Shown one piece after another: positions 19,066 to 42,752 of a stretch of DNA of 43,294 bases; the first letter of the stretch is position 1, and each line of letters begins with the position of its first letter. The translations under genes and the position numbers were made by a program. The DNA comes from Rubrivivax sp. (GTDB taxonomy: Bacteria; Pseudomonadota; Gammaproteobacteria; Burkholderiales; Burkholderiaceae_C): NCBI GenBank assembly GCA_016790395.1, contig JAEUPH010000330.1, positions 1 through 43,294 on the forward strand. The letters are read 5' to 3'. The notes under the pieces were generated by a model. It was not told the DNA's origin and made no database searches. It saw only the letters and a list, made by a program, of their open reading frames with translations.

Positions 19066-19090
19066 GGCGGGGTCCGGTTGGGGCGGCGGT

Positions 19091-20821: not shown

Positions 20822-20858
20822 CGACGCACCGCCGTTCCGCTGGTTTCGTGTCTGCATG

Positions 20859-20885
20859 TTAGGGCGCATGACTGATCCGTGCCAT
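20859..20885 (-). CDS. Possible 8-residue leader peptide upstream of tpsB
   Basis: The best ribosome binding site in this region, AGGAG at 20894-20898, is eight bases from an ATG at 20885 that encodes only MARISHAP before TAA. The stop is followed after one base by an ATG in the tpsB frame (TAACATG), which suggests re-initiation or coupling. The mini-ORF contains no runs of a single amino acid, so classical amino-acid attenuation is not indicated. It may be fortuitous. Confidence 0.3.
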   Translation of the reverse strand: MARISHAP

Positions 20886-22239: not shown

Positions 22240-22737
22240 ATGAGCAGCAGTCAGAAATTCATCGCCCGCAACCGCGCCCCGCGCGTCCAGATCGAGTACG
22301 ACGTGGAGGTCTACGGCGCCGAGAAGAAGGTGCAGCTGCCCTTCGTGATGGGCGTGCTGGCCGACCTGTCGGGCAAGCCGGCCGAACCGCTGGCGCCGGT
22401 GGCCGACCGCAAGTTCCTCGAGATCGACGTCGACAACTTCGACGCTCGCATGAAGGCGATGAAGCCGCGTGTCGCCTTCCCCGTCGCCAATGCGCTCACC
22501 GGTGAGGGCAATCTCAGCGTGGACATCACGTTCGAGAGCATGGACGACTTCTCGCCCGACGCCGTGGCGCGCAAGGTCGACTCGCTGAACAAGCTGCTCG
22601 AGGCGCGCCAGCAACTGCAGAACCTGGTCACCTACATGGACGGCAAGGGCGGCGCCGAGGAACTGATCGGCAAGCTGATGCAGGACCCGGCGCTGCTGGG
22701 TGCACTGGCTGCCTCGGCCAAGCCCGCCGAAGGCTGA
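22240..22737 (+). CDS. tssB: T6SS sheath small subunit TssB (VipA/ImpB)
   Basis: At 165 residues it has normal family length. It opens with the basic N-terminus SSSQKFIARNRAPRVQIEYD, continues with LPFVMGVLADLSGKP and the signature RKFLEIDVDNFDARMKAMKPRV, and has the helix FSPDAVARKVDSLNKLLEAR. TssB pairs with TssC to form the cogwheel-like contractile sheath in the cytoplasm. A ribosome binding site (AGGAG) precedes the ATG. It follows tssA by 79 bases and precedes tssC by 46 bases, the usual tssB-tssC order. Confidence 0.97.
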   Translation: MSSSQKFIARNRAPRVQIEYDVEVYGAEKKVQLPFVMGVLADLSGKPAEPLAPVADRKFLEIDVDNFDARMKAMKPRVAFPVANALTGEGNLSVDITFESMDDFSPDAVARKVDSLNKLLEARQQLQNLVTYMDGKGGAEELIGKLMQDPALLGALAASAKPAEG

Positions 22738-24349: not shown

Positions 24350-24397
24350 TGATCGCAGCGTTCAATGCCCGGGGTCGGGCTATCAAGGAGAAGCATC

Positions 24398-24987: not shown

Positions 24988-25488
24988 ATGGCTCAATCGG
25001 ACATGTTCCTCAAGGTGACGGGCCAGCGGACCGGTGAGATCCGGGGCGAGTCCACCGACAGGACCTACCCCGACCACATCGAGCTCGTGGACTGGACCTG
25101 GGGCATGAAGACCCACACCAACGCGGGTGGCCAGGCCACCGGGCGTCGGCAGCTCTCGGAGCTGAAGGTCGTCAAGCGCGCCGACATCGCTTCCACGGCG
25201 CTGATGTCCGTGCTGAGCCACAACGAGACGCTGACTTCGGTGGTTCTGTTGGTGCGCAAGTCGGGGGGCGCCAGCGGCGGCGTGGCGTACTTCAAGGTCA
25301 CGCTGGAGAAGGCCCGGGTCAGCGAGTACACGGTGCAGTCCGACGTGACGCCGCATGGCTCGCCGACGCTCACCGAACGCCTGTCCTTCACCTTCCAGCG
25401 CATCACGGTCGACTACACGCCGCAGCTGAGCGCCGGTGGCGGTGGCGGCGGCACCTCATTCACCGACGACGTCGGCCCGGGCACCTGA
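24988..25488 (+). CDS. hcp: T6SS Hcp-family protein, second diverged copy
   Basis: This 166-residue Hcp paralogue has the same fold order as the first copy: QSDMFLKVTGQRTGEIRGESTDRTYPDHIELVDWTWG, then STALMSVLSHNE, VVLLVRKSGG and LSFTFQRITVDYTP. The two share the GESTD and TWG/SWG landmarks but are clearly diverged elsewhere. It lacks the histidine/glycine loop of copy one and instead ends in a flexible SAGGGGGGTSFTDDVGPGT tail. A GAGAAGG ribosome binding site precedes the ATG. It could form mixed or alternative tubes, or act as a carrier for a specific cargo. It lies between the first hcp and tagJ, in the same direction. Confidence 0.93.
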   Translation: MAQSDMFLKVTGQRTGEIRGESTDRTYPDHIELVDWTWGMKTHTNAGGQATGRRQLSELKVVKRADIASTALMSVLSHNETLTSVVLLVRKSGGASGGVAYFKVTLEKARVSEYTVQSDVTPHGSPTLTERLSFTFQRITVDYTPQLSAGGGGGGTSFTDDVGPGT

Positions 25489-25514: not shown

Positions 25515-26336
25515 ATGTCCCAAGCGCGTGCGGCCGAGCAGGCCCTCAAGGATGGCGACCCGCAGGCGGCACTGAAGCTGCTCACCGAGCAGGTGCGCGC
25601 CGCGCCGCAGGACGCCAAGCTGCGCGTCTTCATGTTCCAGCTGCTGTGCCTGCTGGGCCAGTGGGAGCGCGCGCTGAACCAGCTCAAGGTGGCGCAGGAA
25701 CTGGACATCGGCACCTTGCCGATGGTGCAGACCTACCGTGAGGCCATCGCCTGCGAGACGCTGCGCCTGCAAGTCTTCGCCGGCCACAAGGTGCCCATGC
25801 TCTTCGGCGAGCCCGAGACCTGGGTGGCCTTGCTGATCGAGGCCCTGTTGCGCGCCGGTCGGGGCGAGGCCGAGGCCGCGCGTCAGCTGCGGGAGCAGGC
25901 GCTGGAGCAGGCGCCCGCCACGCCGGGACAGGCCAACGTCGGTGAGGCCGTGCAGGCCTTCGACTGGATCGCCGATGCCGATGCTCGCCTGGGCCCCACG
26001 CTCGAGGCGGTGATCAACGGCCGCTACTATTGGCTGCCCTGGAACCGCCTCGCGAAGGTCGACATCGACCCGCCGCAGGACCTGCGCGACCGCATCTGGA
26101 TGCCGGCGCATTTCGAGTTCACCAATGGAGGCAGCGTGGTCGGGCTCATCCCCACGCGCTACCCCGACACCGACCTGGCCGCCGGCGGCCTGCTCGCGAT
26201 GGCGCGCAGCACCGAGTGGCGCGAAACCGGCGACGGCGGCTTCGTGGGCCTGGGCCAGCGCGTGATCACGACCAACGATGCCGAGTTCGCGCTGATGGAC
26301 CTGCGGTCGGTCACGCTGGCAGGCGCCGACGCTTGA
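25515..26336 (+). CDS. tagJ: T6SS accessory protein TagJ (ImpE)
   Basis: This is a 273-residue ImpE-family protein. The N-terminal half has TPR-like helices (AEQALKDGDPQAALKLLTEQVRAAP and FMFQLLCLLGQWERALNQL). The C-terminal half has the ImpE core, including VINGRYYWLPW, RDRIWMPAHFEFTNG and GLIPTRYPDT, and ends with an ALMDLRSVTLAG strand. In Pseudomonas aeruginosa HSI-1 TagJ binds the N-terminus of TssB and helps link the sheath to ClpV. Its presence places this cluster with the TagJ-containing T6SS lineages. It starts 26 bases after the second hcp, with a GGAG ribosome binding site, and is followed by tssE after 16 bases. Confidence 0.92.
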   Translation: MSQARAAEQALKDGDPQAALKLLTEQVRAAPQDAKLRVFMFQLLCLLGQWERALNQLKVAQELDIGTLPMVQTYREAIACETLRLQVFAGHKVPMLFGEPETWVALLIEALLRAGRGEAEAARQLREQALEQAPATPGQANVGEAVQAFDWIADADARLGPTLEAVINGRYYWLPWNRLAKVDIDPPQDLRDRIWMPAHFEFTNGGSVVGLIPTRYPDTDLAAGGLLAMARSTEWRETGDGGFVGLGQRVITTNDAEFALMDLRSVTLAGADA

Positions 26337-26352: not shown

Positions 26353-26859
26353 ATGTCCACGCTGCGCGCCCAGGACAGGTTGCAACCGGCGCTGCTGGAC
26401 CGCCTGACCGACGACGACACCGAAGCGCGCCACGAGACCGGCGAGTCGCGGGTCATCAACCGCAACCGCCTGCGCGAACTGGTGCTGCGCGACCTCGCCT
26501 GGCTCTTCAACACCACCGCGCCCGGGGCCGAGATCGACTGGTCGAAGGCGCCGCATGCGCGCAATTCGGTGCTGAACTACGGCCTGCCTGCGCTGTCGGG
26601 GCAGACGGCGTCCACCATCGATCCGCTGGTGCTGCAGTCGCGCGTGCGCCAGGCCATCATCGAACACGAGCCGCGCATCCTGCCGGGCACGCTGAAGGTG
26701 GAAGCCATCCTGTCCGAAGAGCAGATGGACCACTTCAACCAGATCGGCTTCCGCATCTCGGGCCAGCTCTGGGCCCAGCCGGTGCCGCTGGAGCTGCTGC
26801 TGCACACCGACATCGATCTCGAAACCGGCCGCGTGGCCGTGCGCGAACTGGACCGCTGA
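26353..26859 (+). CDS. tssE: T6SS baseplate protein TssE (gp25-like)
   Basis: At 168 residues it matches the GPW/gp25 lysozyme-like baseplate family in length. Landmarks are LQPALLDRLTDDD, the basic RNRLRELVLRDLAWLFNT, the segment VLNYGLPALSGQTAS and the C-terminal VRQAIIEHEPRILPGTLKVEA. TssE sits in the baseplate wedge with TssF, TssG and TssK and starts sheath assembly; it has no lysozyme activity in studied systems. The ATG follows a GGAG ribosome binding site and lies 16 bases after tagJ. Confidence 0.94.
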   Translation: MSTLRAQDRLQPALLDRLTDDDTEARHETGESRVINRNRLRELVLRDLAWLFNTTAPGAEIDWSKAPHARNSVLNYGLPALSGQTASTIDPLVLQSRVRQAIIEHEPRILPGTLKVEAILSEEQMDHFNQIGFRISGQLWAQPVPLELLLHTDIDLETGRVAVRELDR

Positions 26860-29930: not shown

Positions 29931-32663
29931 ATGGCAGAGATCAACCGCGTCACGCTCTTCGGCAAGCTGAATGCGCCGACCTACAAGGCCGTCGAAGGCG
30001 CCACGGTGTTCTGCAAGCTGCGCGGCAACCCCTACGTCGAGCTGGAGCACTTCCTGGCCCAGCTGCTGCAGCAGCCCGACAGCGACTGGCACCGCGTCAT
30101 CAAGCACGCGCAGCTGGACATGTCCGCGCTGGCCAAGGACCTCACCACCGCGCTCGACCGCCTGCCGCGGGGCGCCAGCAGCATCAGCGGCATCGCCGAG
30201 AACATTGCCGACGCCATCGAGCGGGGCTGGGTCTACGGCACGCTGCTGTACGGTGACAGCGTGGTGCGCAGCGGCTACCTGCTGGTGGGCATGCTGAAAA
30301 CCAAGAACCTGCGCAATGCGCTGGTGGCCATCAGCCGGCAGTTCGAGAAGCTCAAGGTCGATGACGTCTCCGACGCGCTGCCCAAGGTCATCGCCGGCAG
30401 CCCCGAAGACGGGCAGGGCGCCAGCGACGGCAGCGGTGCCGGCGGTGCGGCCCCGGGCGAGGCCAGCGGCGCCATCGCGCCGGCCGCCATGGGCAAGCAG
30501 GAGGCGCTGAAGAAGTTCACCGTCGACCTCACCGAGCAGGCGCGCAGCGGCAAGATGGACCCCATCGTCGGCCGTGACGACGAGATCCGGCAGGTGGTCG
30601 ACATCCTCATGCGCCGCCGCCAGAACAACCCCATCCTGGTGGGCGAGGCCGGCGTCGGCAAGACCGCGGTGGTGGAAGGCTTCGCGCAGCGCATCGCGCG
30701 CGGCGACGTGCCGCCGAGCCTGAAGGACGTGGAGCTGCGCGCGCTCGACGTCGGCCTGCTGCAGGCGGGCGCCAGCATGAAGGGCGAGTTCGAGCAGCGG
30801 CTGCGCAGCGTCATCGACGAGGTGCAGGCCAGCCCCAAGCCCATCATCCTGTTCATCGACGAGACGCACACCCTGGTGGGCGCTGGCGGTGCGGCCGGCA
30901 CCGGTGACGCCGCCAACCTGCTGAAACCGGCGCTGGCGCGCGGCACGCTGCGCACCATCGGCGCCACCACCTTCGCGGAGTACAAGAAGCACATCGAGAA
31001 GGACCCGGCATTGACGCGCCGCTTCCAGACCGTGCAGGTGGACGAGCCCGACGAGCCCAAGGCCATCCTGATGATGCGCGGCGTGGCCAGCACGATGGAG
31101 AAGCACCACCAGGTGCAGATCCTCGACGAAGCGCTGGAAGCGGCCGTGAAGCTGAGCCACCGCTACATCCCGGCGCGCCAGCTGCCCGACAAGAGCGTGA
31201 GCCTGCTCGATACGGCCTGCGCCCGCGTCGCCGTGAGCCTGCACGCCACGCCGGCCGAGGTGGACGACTGCCGCAAGCGCATCGAGGCCCTGGAGACCGA
31301 GCTCGGCATCATCGGCCGCGAGAAGGCCATCGGCGTCGACATCGGCCAGCGCGAGGCCAGCACCGCCGAACTGCTGCAGGCCGAGAAGGCGCGCCTGGCG
31401 GGGCTGGACGCGCGCTGGGCCGAGGAGAAGGCGCTGGTCGACGAACTGCTGGGCCTGCGCGGCAAGCTGCGCGCCGGCATCCAGCCCGTGGAAGGCACGG
31501 GCAGCAACCTGGAGGCCGAGGCCAATGCGGTGGTCACGCCGCCCATGAGCGACGGCGAGCGCGCCGACCTGCAGGCGCAGCTGCGCGCCGTGCAGGACAA
31601 GCTGCACGCGCTGCAGGGCGAGACGCCGCTGATCCTGCCCACGGTGGACTACCAGGCCGTGGCCGCCGTGGTGGGCGACTGGACGGGCATCCCCGTGGGC
31701 CGCATGGCGCGCAACGAGATCGAGACCATCCTCAACGTCGCCAAGCACCTGGGCGAGCGCGTGATCGGCCAGGACCACGCGATGGAGATGATCGCCAAGC
31801 GCATCCAGACCAGCCGCGCCGGCCTGGACAACCCCAGCAAGCCCATCGGCGTGTTCATGCTGGCCGGCACCAGCGGCGTCGGCAAGACCGAGACCGCGCT
31901 GGCGCTGGCCGAGGCGCTCTACGGCGGCGAGCAGAACGTCATCACCATCAACATGAGCGAGTACCAGGAGGCGCACACCGTCTCCACGCTCAAGGGCGCA
32001 CCCCCGGGCTACGTGGGCTATGGCGAAGGTGGCGTGCTCACCGAGGCCGTGCGCCGCAAGCCCTACAGCGTGGTGCTGCTCGACGAGGTGGAGAAGGCGC
32101 ACCCGGACGTTCACGAGATGTTCTTCCAGGTCTTCGACAAAGGCTTCATGGAAGACGGCGAAGGGCGCTTCATCGACTTCAAGAACACGCTCATCCTGCT
32201 CACCACCAACGCCGGCACCGACCTCATCGCCAGCCTGTGCAAGGACCCGGACCTGATGCCCGATCCCGAGGGCATGGCCAAGGCACTGCGCGAGCCGCTG
32301 CTGAAGATCTTTCCCCCGGCGCTGCTGGGGCGGCTGGTGACCATTCCGTACTACCCGCTGTCCGACGAGATGCTGGGCAGGATCGTCAAGCTGCAACTGA
32401 ACCGCATCAAGAAGCGGGTGGAGGCGCGCTACAAGATCCCGTTCGAGTACGGCGAAGACGTCGTGAAGCTGGTGGTCAGCCGCTGCACCGAGAGCGAATC
32501 GGGCGGCCGGATGATCGACGCCATCCTCACCAACACCATGCTGCCGGACATCAGCCGCGAGTTCCTGACGCGGATGATGGAAGGGCAGGCCATCGAGCGG
32601 GTGAGCGTCGGGGTGGCCGGCGCCGGCTTCTCATACGACTTCGACGTGAACGTCACGACATGA
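29931..32663 (+). CDS. tssH: T6SS sheath-recycling ATPase TssH (ClpV)
   Basis: This is a 910-residue AAA+ unfoldase of the ClpB/ClpV type. The N-terminal Clp repeat domain is at 1-160, followed by a Gly/Ala/Ser-rich linker to about 185. The first AAA domain has Walker A GEAGVGKT (238-245) and Walker B ILFIDETH. A coiled-coil middle domain (about 430-560) follows. The second AAA domain has Walker A GTSGVGKT (646-653) and Walker B VVLLDEVEKAH. ClpV binds contracted TssB/TssC sheath and disassembles it for reuse. A ribosome binding site (GAAAGGAA) precedes the ATG, 37 bases after tssG. Both ATPase sites look intact. The gene closes the structural part of this operon. Confidence 0.96.
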   Translation: MAEINRVTLFGKLNAPTYKAVEGATVFCKLRGNPYVELEHFLAQLLQQPDSDWHRVIKHAQLDMSALAKDLTTALDRLPRGASSISGIAENIADAIERGWVYGTLLYGDSVVRSGYLLVGMLKTKNLRNALVAISRQFEKLKVDDVSDALPKVIAGSPEDGQGASDGSGAGGAAPGEASGAIAPAAMGKQEALKKFTVDLTEQARSGKMDPIVGRDDEIRQVVDILMRRRQNNPILVGEAGVGKTAVVEGFAQRIARGDVPPSLKDVELRALDVGLLQAGASMKGEFEQRLRSVIDEVQASPKPIILFIDETHTLVGAGGAAGTGDAANLLKPALARGTLRTIGATTFAEYKKHIEKDPALTRRFQTVQVDEPDEPKAILMMRGVASTMEKHHQVQILDEALEAAVKLSHRYIPARQLPDKSVSLLDTACARVAVSLHATPAEVDDCRKRIEALETELGIIGREKAIGVDIGQREASTAELLQAEKARLAGLDARWAEEKALVDELLGLRGKLRAGIQPVEGTGSNLEAEANAVVTPPMSDGERADLQAQLRAVQDKLHALQGETPLILPTVDYQAVAAVVGDWTGIPVGRMARNEIETILNVAKHLGERVIGQDHAMEMIAKRIQTSRAGLDNPSKPIGVFMLAGTSGVGKTETALALAEALYGGEQNVITINMSEYQEAHTVSTLKGAPPGYVGYGEGGVLTEAVRRKPYSVVLLDEVEKAHPDVHEMFFQVFDKGFMEDGEGRFIDFKNTLILLTTNAGTDLIASLCKDPDLMPDPEGMAKALREPLLKIFPPALLGRLVTIPYYPLSDEMLGRIVKLQLNRIKKRVEARYKIPFEYGEDVVKLVVSRCTESESGGRMIDAILTNTMLPDISREFLTRMMEGQAIERVSVGVAGAGFSYDFDVNVTT

Positions 32664-32718: not shown

Positions 32719-33864
32719 ATGATCAAGTACGCGAACCTGGGTCTGGACAAGCAGCTCAACGAGATCGTCATCGTGGGAAGCCACGACGCCGGTGTGACCG
32801 GCGGCGATCCCAACACGCAGACGCAGAGCCTGGACATCTTCGGGCAGGCCGAAGCCGGCGTGCGATTCTTCGACATCCGCATCACGGGTGCCGTGGTCAA
32901 GAAGGGCGGCGCCAGCGACGTTGTGACGCTCAAGGCGTATCACGGCAAGGGGCCCTCCAGCACCAAGACGGCTGTCGATCTGCGGACCGGGCAGACGGGC
33001 AAGGTGGAGGTGAAGAGCCTCTGGGGGGGCGACTTCGGGCTGTCGCTGACGAACATCCTCAACGACGCGCTCCGCTTCGTGACGAAGAACAGCACCGAGT
33101 TCCTGATCCTCAAGTTCGACAAGTGCGCGAACTGGGACATGATCGCCGACGCGTGCAGGAGCATTCTCGGCTCGGCGCTGTTGAGCGGTCGGAACCTCAA
33201 CACCGCCACCCTGCGAGAACTCCAGGGCAAGGTGATCTGCGCCTTCATGACCAAGGGCTACACGTCCCTGAAGCTGCCAGGGCAGAACGCTGGCATCAGT
33301 CACATCACGAACCTGTACAAGCCGCCTGCCGGCTACAGCCGCACCTTTCCGGGCTTGCAGTACTGGGGGTCCGGCGGCACGCCGATCAACAACCACGGTT
33401 TCGAGAAGAAGATCGGCGACAACATCAGCAAGCAGACGAAGATCCTGACGAGCGCGTCGACCGGCATCAGCGAGAAGAAGAGAACCTTCAAGAAGAACAT
33501 CCCTGGCTGTTCCCCCGCCGACCCGAACGCCATCGGCATGATGTACTGGACCACCACGGGCGTGAACAAGAGCATCAAGGAGCGCAACGAACTGATGTGG
33601 GACAAGGACCACCGTGGTGGCCTTGAAGAACTCTGGCGCACGGGATTCGCCAGCTACATCAACAACGCGCTGCCCAAGAGCGTCGATGCCTGTTCGTTCT
33701 CCTCCGGCGGCACCCTCAAGCTGTTCATGCCGAACATCGTGATGATCGATTTCGCGGACGAGGACAAGTGCGAGTACATCTACGGGTTGAACACCGTGGC
33801 CGCGATCGAATTGGTCAAGATCTGCCAGAAGCTCGATATCCACGGCGGCCACAACAGCCTGTAG
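32719..33864 (+). CDS. PI-PLC X-domain-like phosphodiesterase, candidate T6SS effector
   Basis: This is a 381-residue protein. It matches the phosphatidylinositol-specific phospholipase C X-domain in the order of its key elements: IVGSHDAGV with a catalytic-type His22, AGVRFFDIRI with the substrate-binding Arg, a second histidine in KAYHGKG (His75), and FVTKNSTEFLILKF, which aligns with the conserved segment after the second histidine in Bacillus PI-PLC. The C-terminal half (from about residue 190) is unusually Lys/Asn/Ser-rich. No signal peptide is visible. It starts 55 bases after tssH with a good ribosome binding site (GAGGTGA) in the same direction, a common place for cargo genes. Base and codon use differ from its neighbours (lower GC, more Lys and Asn), suggesting transfer. 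Enzymes of this fold cleave phosphoinositides or related glycerophospholipids; use as an antibacterial or anti-eukaryotic effector is inference. Confidence 0.75.
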   Translation: MIKYANLGLDKQLNEIVIVGSHDAGVTGGDPNTQTQSLDIFGQAEAGVRFFDIRITGAVVKKGGASDVVTLKAYHGKGPSSTKTAVDLRTGQTGKVEVKSLWGGDFGLSLTNILNDALRFVTKNSTEFLILKFDKCANWDMIADACRSILGSALLSGRNLNTATLRELQGKVICAFMTKGYTSLKLPGQNAGISHITNLYKPPAGYSRTFPGLQYWGSGGTPINNHGFEKKIGDNISKQTKILTSASTGISEKKRTFKKNIPGCSPADPNAIGMMYWTTTGVNKSIKERNELMWDKDHRGGLEELWRTGFASYINNALPKSVDACSFSSGGTLKLFMPNIVMIDFADEDKCEYIYGLNTVAAIELVKICQKLDIHGGHNSL

Positions 33865-33922: not shown

Positions 33923-35224
33923 ATGGCCGACGACCTGATATCCCACAAGACCTGGATCTCCCGCACCGAGGTCTCGATGCAGCGCCGCAGCCCCGAGCTG
34001 AAGGCGCTGGACCAGTTGCTGCTGGACTACGAGGCCCGGGGCGGCGGCGATCTCCGCTGGCGTGTCGAGCAGGCGCTGCAGGCGTGGAAGGCCGCGCACG
34101 GCGCCGGTGACGAATGGCGCAAGAGCTCGCGCAACCGCAATGGCGCCTTCGACGACCTCACGCGCGCGCTGGCCACCAAGCACACGCTGTCCGAGGCCGA
34201 TGAAGCCGCGCTCGAGGCCATCGCCGAGGCGAACAAGTCCTTCCTGCAGGCGCTCTTCGCCGAGCGGCGCGTGGTGCTGTCGGCACGCGCGCTGACGGCC
34301 TATCAGGGTCTGGACCTGGCGCACGATCTCGACCGCCTGGTGGCGCAGGCCCGCGGCGGCGAGTCGGGCACCCACTGGCTGATGCGCGAGGCCCACGGCC
34401 TGGTGCAGAGCCTGCTCGGTGACGTCTGGCACATGGAGGAACTGCAGTTGCTCGTGGGCCAGGTGCTGGGCCGCAGCGCGAGCGACCTGGCGAGCGCCAT
34501 CGCGCCGGGGCTGGGACTGGTGAAGTCGGCGTCGATGACGATGTACCACTCGATCATGCTGGCCGCCAATGCGCGCAAGGTGGTCCAGCTGGAGGCGGCC
34601 GAGCCGGCCATCGCGGCTGGCGACCCCGCGGCGGCGCTGCTGGCCGTGCAGGAACTGGCCAAGCGCGAGACCGCCCACAGCGCGGGCCGCATGGCCAGCT
34701 ACGCCGCCGAGACCGGCGGCAAGCTGGTGGGCACCTTCGTCGACGGCGGCACGGCCACGGCGGCCGTGGTCGGCGCGGCGGCCACCATCACGCGCATGGT
34801 CATCACGCTCAACGCCATCCGCGTCGACGTGCTGGAGATGCGCGCGGCCAACCAGCTGCTCGCAAAGCCCGACACGCTGGACGCCACGCTGTTCGCCAAG
34901 AGCCCGCTGCTGGGCTGCTACTTCCTGGTGTGCGCCGACACCAGCACCATCGTGAACTTCATGTTCAGGAACCTGGGCAAGCCGGGCTTCCAGTACGAGG
35001 TGGAGAAGGCCTGCAAGGACCACCTGGACACCACGCTGAAGATCGCCAGCCACCTGGTGTACGAGCACCGCATGAAGCTGTCGGGCCGGCAGCTGCCCAA
35101 GATGTCGGTGCTGCGCGGTGACGGGCAGGACCAGATCGCCGTGCGCGAGCCCGGCACGCTGATGCACCTGAAGGCCGCGACGGCCAACCGCGTGCGCGGC
35201 CGTGACAAGGGCTTCTACAAATGA
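33923..35224 (+). CDS. Uncharacterised helical protein next to the PI-PLC-like gene
   Basis: This is a 433-residue protein that I do not recognise. It looks almost wholly alpha-helical, with a basic N-terminal helix (ISHKTWISRTEVSMQRRSPE). A central Gly/Ala-rich hydrophobic stretch (GGTATAAVVGAAATITRMVITL, about residues 275-295) could insert in a membrane. A basic C-terminal tail ends in RVRGRDKGFYK. There is no signal peptide. The start codon ATG at 33923 has no clear ribosome binding site. It follows the PI-PLC-like gene by 58 bases, and it converges on the TssB-TssC fusion gene with 20 bases between. Its position suggests a second cargo, an immunity protein or an adaptor for the phospholipase-like protein; the sequence does not decide. 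GC content is back to the level of the T6SS genes. Confidence 0.7.
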   Translation: MADDLISHKTWISRTEVSMQRRSPELKALDQLLLDYEARGGGDLRWRVEQALQAWKAAHGAGDEWRKSSRNRNGAFDDLTRALATKHTLSEADEAALEAIAEANKSFLQALFAERRVVLSARALTAYQGLDLAHDLDRLVAQARGGESGTHWLMREAHGLVQSLLGDVWHMEELQLLVGQVLGRSASDLASAIAPGLGLVKSASMTMYHSIMLAANARKVVQLEAAEPAIAAGDPAAALLAVQELAKRETAHSAGRMASYAAETGGKLVGTFVDGGTATAAVVGAAATITRMVITLNAIRVDVLEMRAANQLLAKPDTLDATLFAKSPLLGCYFLVCADTSTIVNFMFRNLGKPGFQYEVEKACKDHLDTTLKIASHLVYEHRMKLSGRQLPKMSVLRGDGQDQIAVREPGTLMHLKAATANRVRGRDKGFYK

Positions 35225-35236: not shown

Positions 35237-35254
35237 CCGCGGGATCAGCCGCGG
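35237..35254. terminator. Small hairpin in the convergent gap
   Basis: CCGCGG-GATCAG-CCGCGG can form a 6-bp stem with a 6-base loop. It overlaps the stop codon of the TssB-TssC fusion gene and sits 13 bases after the stop of the opposite gene. It could act for both strands but has no T-run, so termination is doubtful. Confidence 0.22.
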
Positions 35255-36663
35255 TGCGGCAGGCCGGCCAGCGGCCGCGCCGGGTGCGCGACCGACTGCA
35301 GGCGCAACACCGTGACGGCGTTGCGGTGCTTGTGGCTCATCAGCGGCATGAGGCCGGCGTCCAGCAGGGCCTGGCCGGCCTGTTCGCCCAGCAGGTGCTC
35401 GGCACAGGGCTGCAGCACGGTCTCGCCGTCCAGCTGGAAGCTGAAGGCCGGCAGGTCGCCGATCTCGCGCTCGTCGCCGGGTTCGAAAGCCCAGCCGGAG
35501 GCGTTGAAGGCGCGGCCGATGAGATGGGCCACGGCCAGCGAGCCCGCGCCCCACAGCAGCTGTTCGTGCCCGGGCGTGCCCGGGAACTCCTCGAAGGCGA
35601 ACGAGGACAGCGGGTCGCTGCGCTTGCCATAGGGCTGACGCAGCAGCAGGCGCGGCGCAGCCAGGCCGATCCAGGGTGCGGCCTCGCTGGCGCGCAGCGC
35701 GGCCCAGCCGGCCAGCGCCGCGGGCTCGGCGGTGGCCAGGGCGAGGTCGGCGGCGGCCAGCCAGGGGCCACCGGCCTGCGCCGAGATCAGGCCCATCGCG
35801 GCGGCCAGGCCGATGTCGGCGTCGCCGGGGCCGAAGCTGAAGAGGCCGACCAGCGCGTGCCAGGGTTCGCCGCCGGGCAGGTTGCGCCAGCGGTCGGCCA
35901 GGTTGTGGTGGAGCGCCGTCTGCGCCAGGCGCCCCTGGCTGGCCACGACATCGGCAACGAGCTCGTCGCGCGAGACATCCAGCAGGTGCAGTTCCAGCCC
36001 GTCGTCCAGTTCCAGCGTCGACACCAGCCACATCGCGCCGCGCCAGGCCGCTTCCAGCGCCTGGAAAGCCGGTGCGTGCAGCAGCGCGCGCATCTCGGCC
36101 GCGATGGCCGCGTCCACCGAGGCCACCAGCTCGGCCTGCTGGGATTGGGTGTCGGGCCGGACATGCGGTGCCACGATGCGGCGGACCAGGGCGTCGATGC
36201 CGCTGGTGGGCGTGGGCGCGGGCGGCGCTGCCAGCCCGGCGGGGCGCCCACCCAGCAGGCCGGCCAGCAAGTCGCCGCCGGGCGCCGCGGCGGGGGCGGG
36301 TTCGGTGGCGCCACCCAGCTCGGCAGCGGCCTGCGCAAACTGGGCCGGGTCCAGCAGACGCTGGCGCAGGCGGCGCAATGCGCCGAAGCGGGGCACGCGC
36401 GCAAAGAGGCTGTCGGGGTGGAAGTGCTCCAGCTCCTCGAACTCGAGCGTCTCGCCGTCCAGCGCCAGCTGCGGCGCCAGCCGCGCCATCACGGTGTCGA
36501 AGCGGTCGGCGTCCAGGCGCAGCGTCGGGCGTTCCTTCAAGGCGGGGCGATCGGCCAGCACGCGATGGCTGAAGTCGCCCACCAGAAGCAGCCGCAGCGG
36601 GCCTTGCGTGCGCTTGCGCGCGGCTGGCGCGGGATGGAAATCGAACTCAAGGCGTCCAGGCAT
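35245..36663 (-). CDS. Fused TssB-like/TssC-like sheath protein
   Basis: This is a 472-residue protein in two parts. Residues 1-115 follow the TssB pattern: GRLEFDFHP, LRLLLVGDFSHR, RPTLRLDADRFDTVMARLAPQL and LEFEELEHFHPDSLFARVPRFGALRRL each align with the TssB of this window. After a Pro/Ala/Gly-rich linker (about 118-150) comes a TssC pattern: APAFQALEAAWRGAMWLV, EPWHALVGLFSFG, APWIGLAAPRLLLRQPYG and DAGLMPLMSHKHRNAV. It stops there, lacking the last 130 or so residues of normal TssC. The ATG at 36663 is preferred to one 60 codons upstream, because it matches the TssB N-terminus and has a GGAG box nine bases before it. It lies antisense within the T6SS cluster. It may cap, regulate or terminate sheath growth; function is unknown. 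Confidence 0.85.
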   Translation of the reverse strand: MPGRLEFDFHPAPAARKRTQGPLRLLLVGDFSHRVLADRPALKERPTLRLDADRFDTVMARLAPQLALDGETLEFEELEHFHPDSLFARVPRFGALRRLRQRLLDPAQFAQAAAELGGATEPAPAAAPGGDLLAGLLGGRPAGLAAPPAPTPTSGIDALVRRIVAPHVRPDTQSQQAELVASVDAAIAAEMRALLHAPAFQALEAAWRGAMWLVSTLELDDGLELHLLDVSRDELVADVVASQGRLAQTALHHNLADRWRNLPGGEPWHALVGLFSFGPGDADIGLAAAMGLISAQAGGPWLAAADLALATAEPAALAGWAALRASEAAPWIGLAAPRLLLRQPYGKRSDPLSSFAFEEFPGTPGHEQLLWGAGSLAVAHLIGRAFNASGWAFEPGDEREIGDLPAFSFQLDGETVLQPCAEHLLGEQAGQALLDAGLMPLMSHKHRNAVTVLRLQSVAHPARPLAGLPHRG

Positions 36664-36784: not shown

Positions 36785-38116
36785 ATGTCTGAGATCACTT
36801 CACCCGAAGCGGCCACCGTGAGCGCACTGCTGCAGCGCGGCATGTCGGCGCACCAGGCCGGCGACTTCCAGGCCGCGCTGGAGGCCTACCGCAGCGTGCT
36901 GGAGGCCGACCCGCGCAACGCCGACGCCCTGCACCTGGCCGGCCTGCTGCATGCGCAGCACGGCAGCACGGAGATGGCGCAGCAGCTGATCGAGGCGGCG
37001 CTGGAGCTGCTGCCCGACGAACCGCTCTACAACAACAACCTGGGCAACCTGCACGTCGAATGCGGCCGGGCCGAGCTGGCGCTGGCTTCCTTCGAGCGCG
37101 CGCATGCCGCGGCGCCGGAACGCCCGGACATCTGCAACAACCTGGCCGTGATGCTGTCGCGCGCCGGCCGGGCCGACGAGGCCGAGCGCCTGTTCAACCA
37201 GGTGATCGCGGTGGCGCCCGGCTTCGACGACGCCCGCCAGAACCTGGCCAACCACCTGCTGCGCCGCGGTCAGGTCCAGCAGGCGGTGCAGACCTGCATC
37301 GACGGCCTGCTCATCGCGCCGCGCAACCGGCACCTGCGCCGCATCCTCGGCGCGGCCTACATCTCCGTGGACATGCAGGGCGAGGCCGAGGCGCTGTACC
37401 GCGCCTGGCTGGCCGATGAACCCGACAGCGCCGAGGCGAACTTCAAGCTGGCGGCCCTGACGCAGAGCGACGTGCCCCAGCGCGCCCCCGACCGCTTCGT
37501 CACCGCCATCTTCGACACCTTCGCGCACAGCTTCGACGCCAAGCTGGCCCAGCTGGGCTACCGTGCGCCCGAACTCGTGGCCGAGGCCGTGGCCCGCCAC
37601 GCGCATGCGCCGGCCGCGGCGCTGGACGTGTGCGACGCCGGTTGTGGCACCGGCCTGTGCGGCCCGCTGCTCAAGCCATGGGCCCGCTGGCTCGCCGGCG
37701 TGGATCTTTCCGAGGGCATGCTGCTGAAGGCGCAGCGGCGCGGCGTCTATGACGACCTCACCGTCGCCGAGCTGGTGGCCTACCTGCAGGCGCGCCCGGC
37801 GGCCTTCGATCTGATCGTTTCGGCCGACACGCTGTGCTACTTCGGTGCGCTGCATGACTTTGCCGCGGCGGCGCACGCAGCGCTTCGCGCCGGTGGGCTG
37901 CTCGTCTTCACGGTCGAAGCCCATGCCGACGAGCCCGCCGAACCCGGATTCCGCCTGCACGGCCACGGCCGCTACAGCCACCGGCCGTCCTACGTGACCG
38001 GAGCGCTGGCGGCCGCCGGCCTCGAACTGCTGGAGCAGCAGGCCGTGGTGCTGCGCATGGAAGCCGGCCAGCCCGTGGCAGGCCGGCTGGTCACCGCGCG
38101 GCGCGCGGCCGGCTGA
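36785..38116 (+). CDS. TPR-repeat protein with SAM-dependent methyltransferase domain
   Basis: This is a 443-residue protein. Residues 13-225 are at least five tetratricopeptide repeats, for example AGDFQAALEAYRSVLEADPRNADALH and GRADEAERLFNQVIAVAPGFDDA. The segment DRFVTAIFDTFAHSFDAKLAQLGY (about 236-259) is typical of the COG4976-type TPR-methyltransferases. A class I methyltransferase follows, with motif I DAGCGTGLCG (284-293), GVDLSEGMLLKA and a VSADTLCYFG motif near 355. It should methylate a protein or small molecule held by the TPR part; the substrate is unknown. It diverges from the sheath-fusion gene and is 35 bases before vgrG, in the same direction. A role modifying a T6SS component or cargo is possible. 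Confidence 0.88.
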   Translation: MSEITSPEAATVSALLQRGMSAHQAGDFQAALEAYRSVLEADPRNADALHLAGLLHAQHGSTEMAQQLIEAALELLPDEPLYNNNLGNLHVECGRAELALASFERAHAAAPERPDICNNLAVMLSRAGRADEAERLFNQVIAVAPGFDDARQNLANHLLRRGQVQQAVQTCIDGLLIAPRNRHLRRILGAAYISVDMQGEAEALYRAWLADEPDSAEANFKLAALTQSDVPQRAPDRFVTAIFDTFAHSFDAKLAQLGYRAPELVAEAVARHAHAPAAALDVCDAGCGTGLCGPLLKPWARWLAGVDLSEGMLLKAQRRGVYDDLTVAELVAYLQARPAAFDLIVSADTLCYFGALHDFAAAAHAALRAGGLLVFTVEAHADEPAEPGFRLHGHGRYSHRPSYVTGALAAAGLELLEQQAVVLRMEAGQPVAGRLVTARRAAG

Positions 38117-38151: not shown

Positions 38152-40221
38152 ATGCCTGAAGCGACCACCCCCCTGCCGATCAAGATCGTCACCGAGCCCG
38201 ACCTGTCGCTGCACTTCAGGGCCATGGCGGGCCACGAGGAGATGTCGCGCCTCTTCGAATACGAGGTGGTGGTGCGCGCCGAGGACGCCGCCGTCGACTT
38301 CGACAGCCTGCTCGGCACCTACGCCGGCGTGTCCTTCGAGGTGGCCGAGGGCAGCTTCCGCTGGTTCAACGGCATCGTCGCGGCCGCCGGCATCGAGGAC
38401 CACCAGGGCGCCTTCCACGACTACCGGCTCGTGCTGCGGCCCTGGCTCTGGCTGGCCACGCAGTCGTCCAACCTGCGTGTCTTCCAGGAGATGACGGCGC
38501 CCGACATCATCAAGGAGGTGCTGGGCACCTACGGGGGCACGGTCACCGACGAGCTCTCGGGCACCTATGCCACCCGCACCTACTGCGTGCAGTACCGCGA
38601 GAGCGACTTCAACTTCGTCAGCCGGTTGATGGAAGAGGAGGGCATCTTCTACTTCTTCCGCCACGTCGACGGCGACCACGAGTTGGTGCTGGGCGACGCC
38701 GCCAGCTCCAACGTGGCGGCCACGGGCTTCGAGACCATCCGTTTCGTCGAAGGCGGCGAAGGCAGCGACGAGGACATGGTCATCCGCCGCTGGCGCATGC
38801 GGCACGAGATCCAGAGCGGCAAGTTCACCCTGCGCGACTACAACTTCGAGACGCCCTCCGACGACCTCACCAGCACCTCGGCCGAGACGGCGCGCACCCA
38901 CGCCGAGGCCACGCACGAGGTCTACGACTACCCGGGGCTGTACGGCGTGAAGGCCGATGGCGATGCCCGCGCGCTGGTGCGCCTGGCCGAAGCCGATGCC
39001 CGCCACGCCCGCTTCACCGGCCAGGGCAACTCGCCGGGCCTGGTGTGCGGTGGCAAGTTCACGCTCAGCGAGCACAAGCGCGACGACCAGAACGCCGACT
39101 ACCTGGTGCTCTCCACGCGCATCGAGCTGCAGCTGGCCGAGTACGAGGCCACCGATGCCGGCGGCCAGACGCGCTACACCTGCGACTTCGTGGCCCAGAA
39201 GCACGCCGACGTCTTCCGCCCAGCGCGGCTGACGCGCAAGCCCGCGGTGGCCGGCCCGCAGACGGCCAAGGTGGTGGGCGACGGCGACCCGGGCGACATC
39301 ATCACCGACGAGCATGCGCGCGTGAAGATCAAGTTCCACTGGGACCGCCTGGGCGCCGACGACGGCACCAGCTCCTGCTGGGTGCGCGTGGCCAGCCCGA
39401 TGGCCGGCAACGGCTGGGGCTTCATCTCCATCCCGCGCCTGGGCCAGGAGGTGGTGGTCGACTTCCTCGAGGGCGACCCCGACCAGCCGCTCATCACCGG
39501 CCGGGTTCACAACCCCGAGCAGCTGCCGCCCTACCTGCTGCCCGACAACGCCGCCGTCACCACGCTCAAGAGCCGCAGCAAGCTGGCCGGCGCCGATGCC
39601 TTCAACGAGCTGCGCTTCGACGACACCGACGGCAGCGAACTGCTGCTGTTGCACGCGCAGAAGGACCGCTTCGAGTTCGTGGAGGAGACGCTCAAGAGCA
39701 CCATCGGCATGGCCGAGCACCGCCACGTGAAGGAAGACCGCAAGGAGCACGTGGAAGGCAAGTGGCACCTGAAGGTGACCGGGGACGTGCTGCACAAGTA
39801 CGAGGCCAAGTGGCACCTCGCCGTGGCGCAGGACATGTTGTTGAAGACCGACGCCAAGTTCAACCTGAAGACCGGCGCCGACATCCTCATCGACGGAGGC
39901 GCCAAGTTCGGGCTGAAGACCGGTGCCGACATCGACGTGAAGGGGGGCGGCAACCTGGGCGTCGATGCCTCCACCAACGTCCACATCAAGGGCGGCGCGA
40001 ACGTCGTCATCGAGGCCGGCTCGCAGCTCAGCATCAAGGCGGGCGGCTCTTCGGTGGTGCTGGGACCGGACGGTGTCTCCATCACCGGCAGCATGGTGAA
40101 GGTGAACTCCGGAGGCTCGCCCGGCTCGGGCAACGGGGCCAGCCCGGGTGCGCCCACCGAGCCCGATGCACCGGAAGATCCCGAGCTGCCGGAAGACCCG
40201 CTGGCCGACGCCCACCGCTGA
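38152..40221 (+). CDS. vgrG: T6SS spike protein VgrG (TssI)
   Basis: This is a 689-residue VgrG. The gp27-like part covers roughly residues 1-370 (MSRLFEYEVVV, APDIIKEVLGTYGG, YCVQYRESDFNFVSRLMEEEGIFYFF). The gp5 OB-fold follows (DEHARVKIKFHWDRLG, SSCWVRVASPMAGNGWG, PRLGQEVVVDFLEGDPDQPLITGRV). A C-terminal beta-helix needle has short repeats (KTDAKFNLKTGADILIDGG and relatives). The last 40 residues form a Gly/Ser then Pro/Glu/Asp-rich tail (EPDAPEDPELPEDP), with no enzymatic domain attached. The trimer forms the spike tip. The tail may be the docking site for the two proteins encoded next. The ATG has only a weak ribosome binding site. Confidence 0.96.
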   Translation: MPEATTPLPIKIVTEPDLSLHFRAMAGHEEMSRLFEYEVVVRAEDAAVDFDSLLGTYAGVSFEVAEGSFRWFNGIVAAAGIEDHQGAFHDYRLVLRPWLWLATQSSNLRVFQEMTAPDIIKEVLGTYGGTVTDELSGTYATRTYCVQYRESDFNFVSRLMEEEGIFYFFRHVDGDHELVLGDAASSNVAATGFETIRFVEGGEGSDEDMVIRRWRMRHEIQSGKFTLRDYNFETPSDDLTSTSAETARTHAEATHEVYDYPGLYGVKADGDARALVRLAEADARHARFTGQGNSPGLVCGGKFTLSEHKRDDQNADYLVLSTRIELQLAEYEATDAGGQTRYTCDFVAQKHADVFRPARLTRKPAVAGPQTAKVVGDGDPGDIITDEHARVKIKFHWDRLGADDGTSSCWVRVASPMAGNGWGFISIPRLGQEVVVDFLEGDPDQPLITGRVHNPEQLPPYLLPDNAAVTTLKSRSKLAGADAFNELRFDDTDGSELLLLHAQKDRFEFVEETLKSTIGMAEHRHVKEDRKEHVEGKWHLKVTGDVLHKYEAKWHLAVAQDMLLKTDAKFNLKTGADILIDGGAKFGLKTGADIDVKGGGNLGVDASTNVHIKGGANVVIEAGSQLSIKAGGSSVVLGPDGVSITGSMVKVNSGGSPGSGNGASPGAPTEPDAPEDPELPEDPLADAHR

Positions 40222-40230: not shown

Positions 40231-41958
40231 GTGCAGCCCGTCGACACCGAAGCCCGGGAAGCCGCCGCGTGGGCGGCCTTCCTGCAGCAGCTCACCGGCC
40301 ACCTGGCCGCGCAGTGGCCGCTGATGCAGGAGCGCCTGGGCGATCGCATGCCGGCCTTCGTCGAACTCTGCGCCCAGCAGACGCTGCAGCGCGGCTTCGT
40401 GCGGGCGGCCAGCGTGGCGCGCATGGCCAACCTGTGGTGCGTGTGGGGCCCGGGCTTCCACGACAAGCCCGGTTTCGAGTGGGCCGCCGAACTGCTCAAG
40501 CGCGACAGCGACGCCGAATGGCTGACGCTGCACCAGCTGCTGCAGCGCTCGCTGAAGGCGCTGGCGCAACTGCCCGACACACGCATCGCGCCGGCCACGC
40601 TGGTGGCGGCCGACCAGCGGCTGATCGAGACCTTCGGCCGCCTGGGCCGGCACGGCGAGCTGCACCCGCGCGAACCCGAGCCGCTGCCGGCCCGGGCCTG
40701 CGACCTGGAAGCCGTCGAACTGCGGCTGCTGGAGCCTGCCGTGGCTGAGCAGTACGTGTTCGCGGCCGGGCAGTGGCAGCGCGCCACCTTGCCGGTGCCG
40801 GCGCCGGTGCGGGTGGACATCGATCACCCGGTGCCGCGCTTGATCGCCGTGCTGGGCGACGTGCCCGAGGCCAAGCCCGCCACGCGCGTCCAGCTGCGCT
40901 CGCGCGCCCATGCACAGTGCGACGACCGCGAGCACCCCGCGCTGCGCTTCGCCGGCACGCACGGCCAGTGGCTCTGGGTGGGCCACGAGACGCGCGCCGT
41001 CAGCTGGCCTGTCTCGGCGCTGCGGCAGCCTCTGCCGCCCGCCGGGGCGGGCACGGCCATCGCCGAGGAGACCTCGCCCGACATCTTCAAGCTCGAGCTC
41101 GCCACCTGCGGCCTGCGCGACGACGGCGAGGCCATCGGCCCGCTGGCCACGCAGCTCTGGGTGTGGCCGGCAGCGCAGTGGCTGCTGACGCTGGAGCGCA
41201 CCGCGGCCGAAGCGCAGCCGGTGCTGCCCGGCCGCGACGCCGTGGCACGGGGCGCCACGCGTTGCACGGTGGAGCGCGACGGCACGGCCCAGGACGCGGC
41301 GCCGCTGCGGGCCGGCTTCGACCAGGGCCTGGATGCCGCCGCGTGGCGGGCTCAGCAATCGCTGCTGGCAGCCCTGGCCGCCGCGCCCGGCATGGCACCG
41401 CCGCGGCTCGATGGCGCGCTGTCGCTGCTGACCGGCCGGGCTGCCATCACCTGGGGCTGGGCGCTGGGCCCGCAGGGCATGAACGCGCGCGCCTTCCTGC
41501 GCACGCTGGGGGCCCTGGAGATGCAGGCCTGCGCCGTGGACCTGCATACCGAAAGTGAGCTGACGGTGGGTGAGGGCCGCGCGCGGCTGCGCCTGCACTG
41601 CAGCGGCCGGGAGGCGCTGGCCGTGCAGTGGCAGCGCGACAGCGCCGAGCCGCTGCTCACGGCGGCGCTGATGCCGGCCAAGGCCAGCTTCCGCATCCCC
41701 TTCACGGCCGAGGTGTTGCCGCTGGCGGGCGACGCCGGCACGCTGCTTCAGGCCGCCGGCCCCTGCAGCGGCGCGCTGGTGGGTGAAGCCGGCCTGCGGC
41801 CGCGGCTGTCGGGGGGCAGCGGCTGGTGCTGGTACGCGCAGCTTCGGCTGGAGCCGGCGGCGCTGCCGCTGGCGCTGGTCGACCCGCTGCTCGGCCGCCG
41901 CGAAGTCGTCCTTCCGCTGTGGGGCGCGCAGGCGCTGCTGGACTGGAGCCTGGGCTGA
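40231..41958 (+). CDS. VgrG-linked protein of unknown function (575 residues)
   Basis: This protein starts at a GTG ten bases after vgrG and ends overlapping the next gene (TGATG), so the three are very likely co-translated. I do not recognise the family; it is not an obvious DUF4123, DUF2169 or PAAR protein. The first 150 residues are helical, with many Trp and Leu (AAWAAFLQQLTGHLAAQWPLM, LWCVWGPGFHDKPGFEW). The middle (about 190-310) looks beta-rich, with VRVDIDHPVPRLIAVLG and GQWLWVGHET. The C-terminal third is also mainly beta (YAQLRLEPAALPLALVDPLL, VVLPLWG). No signal peptide, membrane helix or catalytic motif is visible. It is best regarded as a spike-associated cargo or a loading adaptor. 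Confidence 0.75.
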   Translation: MQPVDTEAREAAAWAAFLQQLTGHLAAQWPLMQERLGDRMPAFVELCAQQTLQRGFVRAASVARMANLWCVWGPGFHDKPGFEWAAELLKRDSDAEWLTLHQLLQRSLKALAQLPDTRIAPATLVAADQRLIETFGRLGRHGELHPREPEPLPARACDLEAVELRLLEPAVAEQYVFAAGQWQRATLPVPAPVRVDIDHPVPRLIAVLGDVPEAKPATRVQLRSRAHAQCDDREHPALRFAGTHGQWLWVGHETRAVSWPVSALRQPLPPAGAGTAIAEETSPDIFKLELATCGLRDDGEAIGPLATQLWVWPAAQWLLTLERTAAEAQPVLPGRDAVARGATRCTVERDGTAQDAAPLRAGFDQGLDAAAWRAQQSLLAALAAAPGMAPPRLDGALSLLTGRAAITWGWALGPQGMNARAFLRTLGALEMQACAVDLHTESELTVGEGRARLRLHCSGREALAVQWQRDSAEPLLTAALMPAKASFRIPFTAEVLPLAGDAGTLLQAAGPCSGALVGEAGLRPRLSGGSGWCWYAQLRLEPAALPLALVDPLLGRREVVLPLWGAQALLDWSLG

Positions 41959-42752
41959 TGGAACGTCTGCTCGTGCTGCGGCTGGAAACCCTGGGCGTGG
42001 CGGCCGAAGCGTCGCTCAATGGCGTGCCCCTGGCGCGCACGCCCGCGGCGGGCGGCGCCGTCACGGTGCCGGTGCACGAGTACACCTTGTCGGGTGCCAA
42101 CCAGCTGGAGCTGGTGATCCAGCCGTCGCCGCCCGGCGCCCCGGCCGCGCCCGAACCGCTGCTCAGCGACGGGCGTTGCGGCGCCAGCCTGAGGCTGCTG
42201 CTGCCGCGCATCGGCCAGGCGGCCCACCCCGAGCATGCGCGCACGCTGGCGCAGATCGACTGGACACCGCTGGCCGACGAAGTGACCGAGGTGCCGCACA
42301 CGGTGCGCCAGGCCGTCGACCTGCCCATCGCCTTCCCGCGCTGGCGCTGGTTCGACGCGCCGGTGATCGCCGATGTGCCGGGGCAGCTGGCGCCGGCCGC
42401 GCGCTTCCTGCAGGGCCTGGTGCTGGGGCTGCAGCGCGGCGACGTGGAGCCGCTGATGCTGGCTGCGCGGCTGCGCTTCGAGGAACTGGCCCAGGCCTAC
42501 CAGCGCAACGTGGCCGACGACGCGCAGCGTTTCCGCCAGCAACTGCTGCAACTGCATGCGGCACAGCCGCTGAAGCCGGCCATGCCCAAGGCCGACGCGC
42601 TGCTGCTGCGCCCGCTGGCCGGCGGCCGCCTCCTGGAGTGTTTGCGGCCCGATGGTCAGCCGGTGCTGCAGGTGCCGGTGGCCGGCGGTGGCACGCTGAT
42701 GCTGCCGCTGCGCTTGGCGCAGATCGAAGGGCGGTTCTATGTCATCCGCTGA
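41958..42752 (+). CDS. VgrG-linked protein of unknown function (264 residues)
   Basis: The ATG at 41958 overlaps the stop of the preceding gene (TGATG), so it is translationally coupled. The frame is open further upstream, but the coupled ATG fits best. The first 55 residues look like a small beta-sandwich (VLRLETLGVAAEASLNGVPL, VTVPVHEYTLSGANQLELVI). The middle is helical (FLQGLVLGLQRGDVEPLML, LRFEELAQAYQRNVADDAQRF). The last 45 residues look beta (ALLLRPLAGGRLLECL, MLPLRLAQIEGRFYVI). No signal peptide or known enzymatic motif is visible. Together with the previous protein it forms an unrecognised pair between vgrG and the FHA gene. It ends 63 bases before the FHA start. Confidence 0.75.
   Translation: MERLLVLRLETLGVAAEASLNGVPLARTPAAGGAVTVPVHEYTLSGANQLELVIQPSPPGAPAAPEPLLSDGRCGASLRLLLPRIGQAAHPEHARTLAQIDWTPLADEVTEVPHTVRQAVDLPIAFPRWRWFDAPVIADVPGQLAPAARFLQGLVLGLQRGDVEPLMLAARLRFEELAQAYQRNVADDAQRFRQQLLQLHAAQPLKPAMPKADALLLRPLAGGRLLECLRPDGQPVLQVPVAGGGTLMLPLRLAQIEGRFYVIR

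Follow-up and report, generated by a model that had tools for sequence, protein, structure and literature searches.

A truncated single-chain TssB–TssC protein encoded near vgrG in Rubrivivax sp., with the anatomy of a putative sheath stopper

How type VI secretion systems (T6SSs) hold back sheath assembly before the spike has been loaded, and how the length of the sheath is set, are open questions. In Vibrio cholerae, TagA is said to terminate the growth of the sheath (PMC7545191). Sheath length in this species is apparently unregulated, unlike that of phage tails with a tape measure (PMC5511345), and sheath assembly in Agrobacterium waits for VgrG loading (PMC6945064). The roles of the N-terminal strand of TssB, and of the C-terminal strand and acceptor sheet of TssC, are described in PMC5924787, according to which TssE and gp25 have a handshake acceptor like the C-terminal part of TssC. 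Here we describe a protein that appears to possess the first of these elements and to be devoid of the other two. It is encoded on the reverse strand of contig JAEUPH010000330.1 of Rubrivivax sp. (assembly GCA_016790395.1; 43,294 nucleotides), which is the entire window analyzed, the remainder of the T6SS cluster lying outside it. The protein, referred to below as the fusion, joins TssB to the N-terminal domain of TssC in one chain, and we propose, with a probability of roughly 0.36, that it docks on an open sheath-acceptor site and blocks the next ring.

When the 472-amino-acid (aa) fusion was searched with Pfam, it matched both sheath families: PF05591 (VipA; E 1.7e-12, 47.9 bits against a gathering score of 24) at residues 15–105, the match ending at profile position 122 of 155, and PF05943 (VipB; E 7.8e-48, 163.5 bits against 27) at residues 178–458, covering profile positions 2–300 of 301. 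No other Pfam domain exceeded its cut-off. There was no match to PF18945, the gpW/gp25-like C-terminal domain of TssC, and the chain ends where PF05943 finishes and PF18945 would start. The NCBIfam equivalog models for TssC (TIGR03355; 160.1 vs 271.5 bits) and TssB (TIGR03358; 44.6 vs 97.25 bits) both scored below their cut-offs on the fusion. The initial annotation, made by eye, had described a TssB-like half joined to a TssC-like half without the TssC C-terminal domain, and complete, separate tssB and tssC on the opposite strand at a distance of about 11 kb. The profile searches agree with this, as both families were hit, not one alone, and Pfam and NCBIfam confirmed the two separate genes. 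The boundaries drawn by eye were about right, except that approximately 25 residues continue beyond the block resembling GFMPLVHRKN. The reading frame is open further to position 36843 (532 aa), and relatives start at an MPGR-like methionine. The QS..xP block near the C-terminus is common to TssC, and most fusions stop a few residues beyond it; Q456, S457, P461 and L465 are kept in 69, 70, 67 and 70 of the 77 aligned fusions, respectively.

A monomer fold model of the fusion (m89f00691f8d3) was built from a 68-row alignment and replaced an earlier 31-row model with a predicted local distance difference test score (pLDDT) of 74.1. The new model had a pLDDT of 91.5 and a predicted template modelling score (pTM) of 0.88, and it predicts a single folded unit made of the TssB-like and TssC-like parts. 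It overlays TssC1 at 2.1 Å (32% identity over 298 aligned residues), the sheaths of extracellular contractile injection systems (eCISs) align to it from about residue 20 to residue 472, and both the TssB half and the TssC N-terminal domain keep their folds. A helix at about residues 92–104 occupies the place of the TssC-binding helix of TssB, with F93, L96 and R100 kept in 76, 75 and 74 of the 77 members, and H82 of the FHPD block is present in all 77. At the N-terminus, where the phmmer match to VipA (3j9g_A) begins at residue 4, a strand-like stretch takes the place of the TssB strand (Table 1). The strand pattern was found 25–32 residues ahead of a GDFS-like block in 90 of 110 rows from two overlapping sets, whereas the spacing was exactly 26 in 8/8 readable TssB. 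Since V. cholerae sheaths with at least two residues inserted in that linker do not contract (PMC5797969), the variable spacing suggests that the fusion is free of the constraint that contraction imposes. Without the gpW/gp25-like domain, the fusion lacks both the acceptor sheet and the C-terminal strand. Thus, with the N-terminal strand kept, its anatomy would be one-way, able to grip and not to be gripped, in line with the earlier suggestion of an extra, tethered protein that could join the sheath but not be built upon.

The retained folds and conserved helix positions of both halves would also suit a soluble chaperone or decoy for free TssB or TssC that prevents polymerization of the pool, and a TssC N-terminal domain is enough for TssB binding. 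We consider this very unlikely, because the two halves were modelled as one unit, in which the TssB–TssC interfaces would be hidden from free TssB and TssC, and because linkage to vgrG exceeds linkage to tssB (see below).

The architecture is not due to chance: 841 relatives of the fusion were found at E ≤ 1e-3, those beyond the best 120 possibly including true TssC. Both Pfam domains were present in 118 of these best 120, the other two (396 and 435 aa) having PF05943 only, and in all of the best 120 of 1580 relatives found with a Desulfobulbaceae member as query. PF18945 was found in none of the 360 relatives listed, i.e. the best 120 of 841, of 1580 and of 823 (the last set is described below). 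From a genome scan, 80 of 112 loci were kept. Their record titles refer to Burkholderiales, Competibacteraceae, tubeworm symbionts, Deltaproteobacteria, Acidobacteriota, Planctomycetota and Lentisphaerae; many loci come from metagenome-assembled genomes (MAGs), and a few titles are apparently misbinned, as L014 falls among Burkholderiales and L028 among Competibacteraceae in the tree. An assembly artefact was ruled out by the same architecture in the relatives listed and by the absence of a stop within the match in 79 of the 80 loci. A phage origin was also rejected, as a tblastn search against 50,697 phage records gave two weak partial matches, none covering 80%.

The tree of the shared TssC N-terminal domain was a quick, unrooted one without bootstrap and took 48 of the 77 fusion rows. 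It placed the 48 fusions opposite 31 TssC and nine full-length TssB–TssC chains with a support of 100 in the Shimodaira–Hasegawa-like approximate likelihood ratio test (SH-aLRT), and the TssC of fusion-bearing hosts themselves fell on the TssC side. In a second tree of the same quick kind, with seven roseobacter giants (see below), 38 rows were separated from 42 (SH-aLRT 100), with the giant cores on the fusion side. As the root was not inferred, the separate branch is consistent with a single origin of the fusion family without proving it. The ratio of nonsynonymous to synonymous substitution rates (dN/dS) was 0.07–0.44 in 11/11 close fusion pairs, with two loci each used in two pairs. The trees and the dN/dS values rule out a recent duplicate or a pseudogene and, on this sequence evidence, the fusion belongs to a widespread family that evolves separately under purifying selection and is not a broken gene. 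A functionless relic of duplicated tssBC is extremely improbable for the same reasons and because of the residues kept throughout the family, such as H82 and L465 near the end, even though the fusion evolves faster than TssC and its side of the tree has long end branches.

The nine full-length TssB–TssC chains (Table 1) each occupy one open frame of 629–845 aa, some starts probably being too early. They keep PF18945 and form one branch among the TssC rows of the tree, and in some T6SSs the sheath subunit appears from these sequences to be a single full-length chain.

The linker between the halves of the fusion carries a motif at the position of the N-terminal ClpV-class motif of TssC (Table 1), in which L132, L133, L136 and G138 are invariant in 31 alignment rows. 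Such a TssC-type motif was present in the linker of 73 of the 77 fusions (shuffled mean 1.84, maximum 5), the exceptions being L060, L061, L065 and L081. There are two forms of the linker, some members having an LLDEI-like sequence and the others an (F/L)xxLLG-like one, and the linker class was that of the host TssC N-terminus in all 29 hosts in which both were read: 6/6 hosts with an LLDxI TssC had an LLDx(I/V) fusion, and 23/23 hosts with a (D/E)(F/L)xxLL TssC had the other form. The window pair is DLASLL in TssC and DLLAGLLG in the fusion. ClpV is bound by the N-terminal helix of VipB via LLDEIM, and HsiC1 of the TagJ-type H1 system has EFASLL (PMC4239648).

A plasmid search led to an annotated homologue of 1063 aa in Qingshengfaniella alkalisoli, which lies with the tssH region on one side and vgrG on the other; the cluster also has separate tssB, tssC and tagJ. 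Its frame is open further upstream, into a TssB (Table 1), and the annotated start codon appears to lie too far downstream. With its core as query, the best 120 of 823 relatives (P0242–P0361) were 610–1579 aa in length and, where named, came mostly from Rhodobacterales. A TssB-like match lay within the first 150 residues in 90 of these best 120 giants; in the 40 matches listed, the extra TssB spans nearly all of TssB, with 69–75% identity to the window TssB. Pfam searches of five giants gave two VipA stretches and VipB, with no VipB_2. The layout is thus a TssB domain, a long acidic stretch with repeated motifs and the truncated TssB–TssC core. In 105 of the 110 rows that could be parsed, the region ahead of the core, extra TssB included, is 200 aa or longer (median 717). 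In this region of the 105, the motif (D/E)(hydrophobic)xxL(hydrophobic), most often DLDALL or DLDDLL, occurred in a median of 6 copies (range 1–14; shuffled mean 0.98), and the count was above all 100 shuffles in 80. A tandem-repeat search of the Qingshengfaniella giant gene did not find a DNA-level array. A Leisingera plasmid contains a giant, its start taken as annotated, in the same gene order as in Qingshengfaniella.

The motifs bear on the nearest rival to our proposal, a docking scaffold for ClpV (TssH) or TagJ, in which the sheath-like core would anchor the protein and one or more TssC-type motifs would concentrate the hexameric ATPase, with no capping. The frequency of the linker motif, the class match in all 29 hosts, the agreement of the class-1 host linkers with the published ClpV-binding LLDEII class and the repeats in the giants would all be expected of such a scaffold. 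It nevertheless appears possible but doubtful, as it leaves unexplained both the loss of exactly the C-terminal domain and the linkage to vgrG. In addition, short members show one linker motif, the TssC N-terminus is dispensable in ClpV1-type systems, and acidic repeats can come from composition, 25 of the 105 giants not being above every shuffle.

The fusion is linked to vgrG more than to tssBC. To call genes in the 80 loci, many of which are short, we used profiles made from gene clusters of these loci themselves. vgrG was found in 52 loci and was no more than 3 kb from the fusion in 48; in 39 it lay within 1.5 kb upstream in divergent orientation, and in six within 1 kb downstream in the same orientation. 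Within 5 kb of the fusion, vgrG was present in 51 loci, DUF4123 in 27, a 278-aa family in 21, tssH in 19 and tssB in six, and DUF4123-type genes were present in 29 of the 80 loci. vgrG occurred without any of seven core genes in 29 loci, 10 of which extend at least 8 kb to each side, and nine loci had core genes without vgrG. In the Competibacter-type drafts G026, G030, G034, G051 and G060, the fusion shared a contig with a neighbouring vgrG, and tssBC were on a different contig. The 278-aa family (L039 2418–3254 (−) and 20 further loci) lies near DUF4123 and vgrG; the one member scanned had no Pfam match.

The next rival after the scaffold is a spike-module factor, i.e. a soluble protein that would work as an adaptor or checkpoint together with VgrG, DUF4123 and PAAR proteins at the baseplate, where the sheath fold would serve as a scaffold without entering the sheath. 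The proximity of vgrG, its presence in 29 loci without core genes, the DUF4123-type genes and the wait for VgrG in Agrobacterium point in this direction. On the other hand, the fusion keeps the TssB–TssC interface residues and the TssC motif, the giants have an extra TssB domain, 19 loci have neither vgrG nor core genes, and the fusion and vgrG are divergent in 39 of the 52 vgrG loci and do not form one operon there, making this rather unlikely. The divergence also speaks against an exported anti-sheath protein that VgrG would deliver to poison the T6SS of a rival. Although the spike gene adjoins the fusion in many loci, and acceptor-less sheath mimics could be dominant negative, by analogy with VipA mutants that do not contract but co-assemble and prevent function (PMC5797969), a Pfam search of the fusion found no toxin or carrier domain, and each of 20 genomes searched had one copy, so that we regard export as highly improbable.

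PF18945 was present in 74 of 79 fusion host genomes (the genome of L022, the 80th locus, being left out) and in a single copy in 66 of the 74, but it was not found in the genomes of L021, L059, L067, L068 and L077. By this measure, the fusion co-occurs with TssC in 74 hosts. The L068 genome (G064), a Lentisphaerae MAG of ~14.1 Mb with a fusion, a tssK-like gene and no PF18945 match, is either an incomplete bin or a genome whose T6SS has an unusual sheath. There was one fusion per genome in 20/20 hosts searched, the match in G010 covering profile positions 147–498 only. In the order of the window, 3 of 250 genomes had the fusion (E ≤ 1e-60) and 58 had PF18945. In a phylum sample, the fusion was found in at least 3 of 398 genomes, a lower bound since the threshold of E ≤ 1e-108 may miss divergent members (L086 and L087 were checked), and PF18945 in 88. 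Every fusion-bearing genome in both samples also had PF18945. These frequencies rule out a standard T6SS part.

Under the proposed blocking mechanism, the docking site would likely be TssE on a VgrG-loaded baseplate, otherwise the last sheath ring. Like the strand of TssB, the N-terminal strand of the fusion would join a two-stranded handshake sheet, provided either by TssE or by the ring below. Without a C-terminal strand and an acceptor sheet, a neighbour would not be held and no further ring would form, because the domain for the next ring to grip is absent from the fusion; the fusion would act as a stopper. ClpV/TssH, together with TagJ in TagJ-type systems, would bind the exposed linker motif, clear the fusion and free the site. 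The linkage to vgrG suggests that the controlled step would be part of spike loading or of the onset of sheath growth, and VgrG-dependent assembly as in Agrobacterium would give such a stopper a job. In roseobacters, a long acidic tether carrying the motifs links the putative stopper to a further TssB domain and would hold it on a sheath subunit.

Several observations weigh against this proposal. As to docking, the strand pattern was unmatched in 19 of the 110 rows and one match was spurious, and residues 1–20 were modelled at low confidence (mean pLDDT 64–65). IglA/IglB without either strand gave no secretion although heterodimers still formed (PMC5924787), and docking without the C-terminal strand may be weak. 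As to the motif, the patterns were written after the sequences had been seen, and the match in 29/29 hosts may reflect very few independent events, because motif classes sort largely by lineage. The N-terminus of Pseudomonas aeruginosa HsiC1 is dispensable for ClpV1 binding (PMC4239648); the window, with TagJ and a TssC with DLASLL, belongs to this ClpV1-like class, in which the motif of the fusion may therefore bind something else. As to the linkage, no vgrG was present within 3 kb in 32 of the 80 loci, six of the 19 loci without vgrG and the seven core genes had ~10 kb on both sides, and in Rubrivivax sp. A210 and Panacagrimonas (G002, G017) the fusion contig differs from the contigs with TssC and over-cut-off vgrG. 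Finally, the fusion is rare in its own order.

A more far-reaching version appears quite unlikely as a whole. The fusion would then be a third kind of sheath protein, an acceptor-less protomer inherited with the spike gene, which shuts the first acceptor ring until the spike loads and is removed by ClpV via its copy of the TssC tag, and the roseobacter tether of several hundred residues would serve as a ruler or leash.

The start codons of the fusion and of the divergent TPR-methyltransferase gene between it and vgrG are separated by 121 bases. The tssE-like label of one window ORF is tentative and was assigned from gene order, its place after tagJ and before the tssF-like ORF matching that in annotated clusters; the tssF and tssG labels, also from order, are likewise tentative. 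Between tssH and the fusion, positions 32719–33864 encode a PI-PLC-X-like protein (Pfam match below cut-off) and 33923–35224 a 433-aa protein with no Pfam match; both have relatives in other fusion loci and form a possible effector pair. The proteins encoded at 40231–41958 and 41958–42752, 3′ of vgrG, have no Pfam or NCBIfam match, and their relatives lie close to the fusion in other Burkholderiales-type loci. The adjacent ORFs 24365–24886 and 24988–25488 fall in one cluster with presumably Hcp-like proteins of other loci. Positions 5113–20869 (−) contain two successive frames, of 4650 and 592 aa, that presumably resemble a two-partner secretion adhesin and its transporter, respectively.

Table 1. 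Coordinates of the fusion, its parts and other features in the window, and of related chains in other loci (in the coordinates of each locus).
Feature	Position	Strand	Evidence or remark
Truncated single-chain TssB–TssC protein	35245..36663	−	472 aa, ATG at 36663; Pfam, NCBIfam, alignments, fold model
TssB-like half, residues 1–120	36304..36663	−	PF05591 at residues 15–105
TssC-like half, residues 155–472	35248..36201	−	TssC N-terminal domain, without gpW/gp25-like C-terminal domain
N-terminal strand-like RLEFDF, residues 4–9, in place of TssB strand gripping ring below	36637..36654	−	phmmer, strand pattern
Linker motif DLLAGLLGG, residues 131–139, at position of TssC N-terminal ClpV-class motif	36247..36273	−	Alignment
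tssB, complete	22240..22737	+	PF05591 E 9.4e-58; TIGR03358 over cut-off
tssC, complete, with PF18945	22784..24274	+	PF05943 E 2.2e-137, PF18945 E 3.3e-43; N-terminal DLASLL
tagJ (ImpE)	25515..26336	+	PF07024 E 5.7e-41
tssE-like ORF, candidate baseplate sheath acceptor	26353..26859	+	Clusters with similar ORFs of other loci
tssH (ClpV)	29931..32663	+	TIGR03345 1255.8 bits, over cut-off
TPR-methyltransferase gene	36785..38116	+	Pfam; between fusion and vgrG, divergent from fusion
vgrG	38152..40221	+	TIGR03361 563.8 bits, over cut-off
Full-length chain, L088	1630–3855	−	
Full-length chain, L089	3731–6013		
Full-length chain, L090	4141–6339	−	
Full-length chain, L091	4612–6627		
Full-length chain, L092	3915–6200		
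Full-length chain, L093	4127–6016	−	
Full-length chain, L094	4428–6659		
Full-length chain, L097	2538–5075		
Full-length chain, L098	3730–5985		
Qingshengfaniella giant, L119	12495–15686		Frame open to 11991, upstream into a TssB

Searches of the open-access literature, and passages of the overviews PMC2660368 and PMC10433429, revealed neither the truncated fusion nor the giants. In databases these proteins are named sheath large subunit, small subunit, domain-containing protein, ImpC or FimV, the last being the name of several giants, and such automatic names hide a different protein. With no acceptor domain, a frequent vgrG neighbour and the ClpV-class motif of TssC, the fusion is a test object for both questions raised at the outset. 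The roseobacter giants physically tie the putative stopper core to a further sheath subunit domain and, if the far-reaching version above is true, their tether would be a built-in ruler or leash where no tape measure is known.

Compared with known systems, the fusion shares with TssB (VipA, HsiB, IglA) the fold, the N-terminal strand-like stretch and the helix in the TssC-binding place, but it is joined to TssC, its profile match ends early, H82 is present in all members and the strand spacing varies. With TssC (VipB, HsiC, IglB) it shares the whole N-terminal domain and the class of the N-terminal motif, but not the gpW/gp25-like C-terminal domain or the branch of the tree. The single-chain sheath proteins gp18 and Afp/Pvc continue into the C-terminal domain and build the sheath, whereas the fusion is without the handshake domain, and its hosts, unlike those of single-chain phage, pyocin and eCIS sheaths, have TssBC besides. 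The full-length TssB–TssC chains occupy one frame as the fusion does, but they keep PF18945, group with TssC and look like working sheath subunits. With the TssA/TagA caps the fusion would have in common a role at the sheath end, although it is built from sheath domains instead. TssE/gp25, the initiator, is a partial sheath protein like the fusion; however, it resembles the C-terminal handshake part that the fusion lacks, so that the two are complementary (PMC5924787). The fusion is a sheath-derived protein that lacks the defining C-terminal domain of TssC and stands outside the TssC branch.
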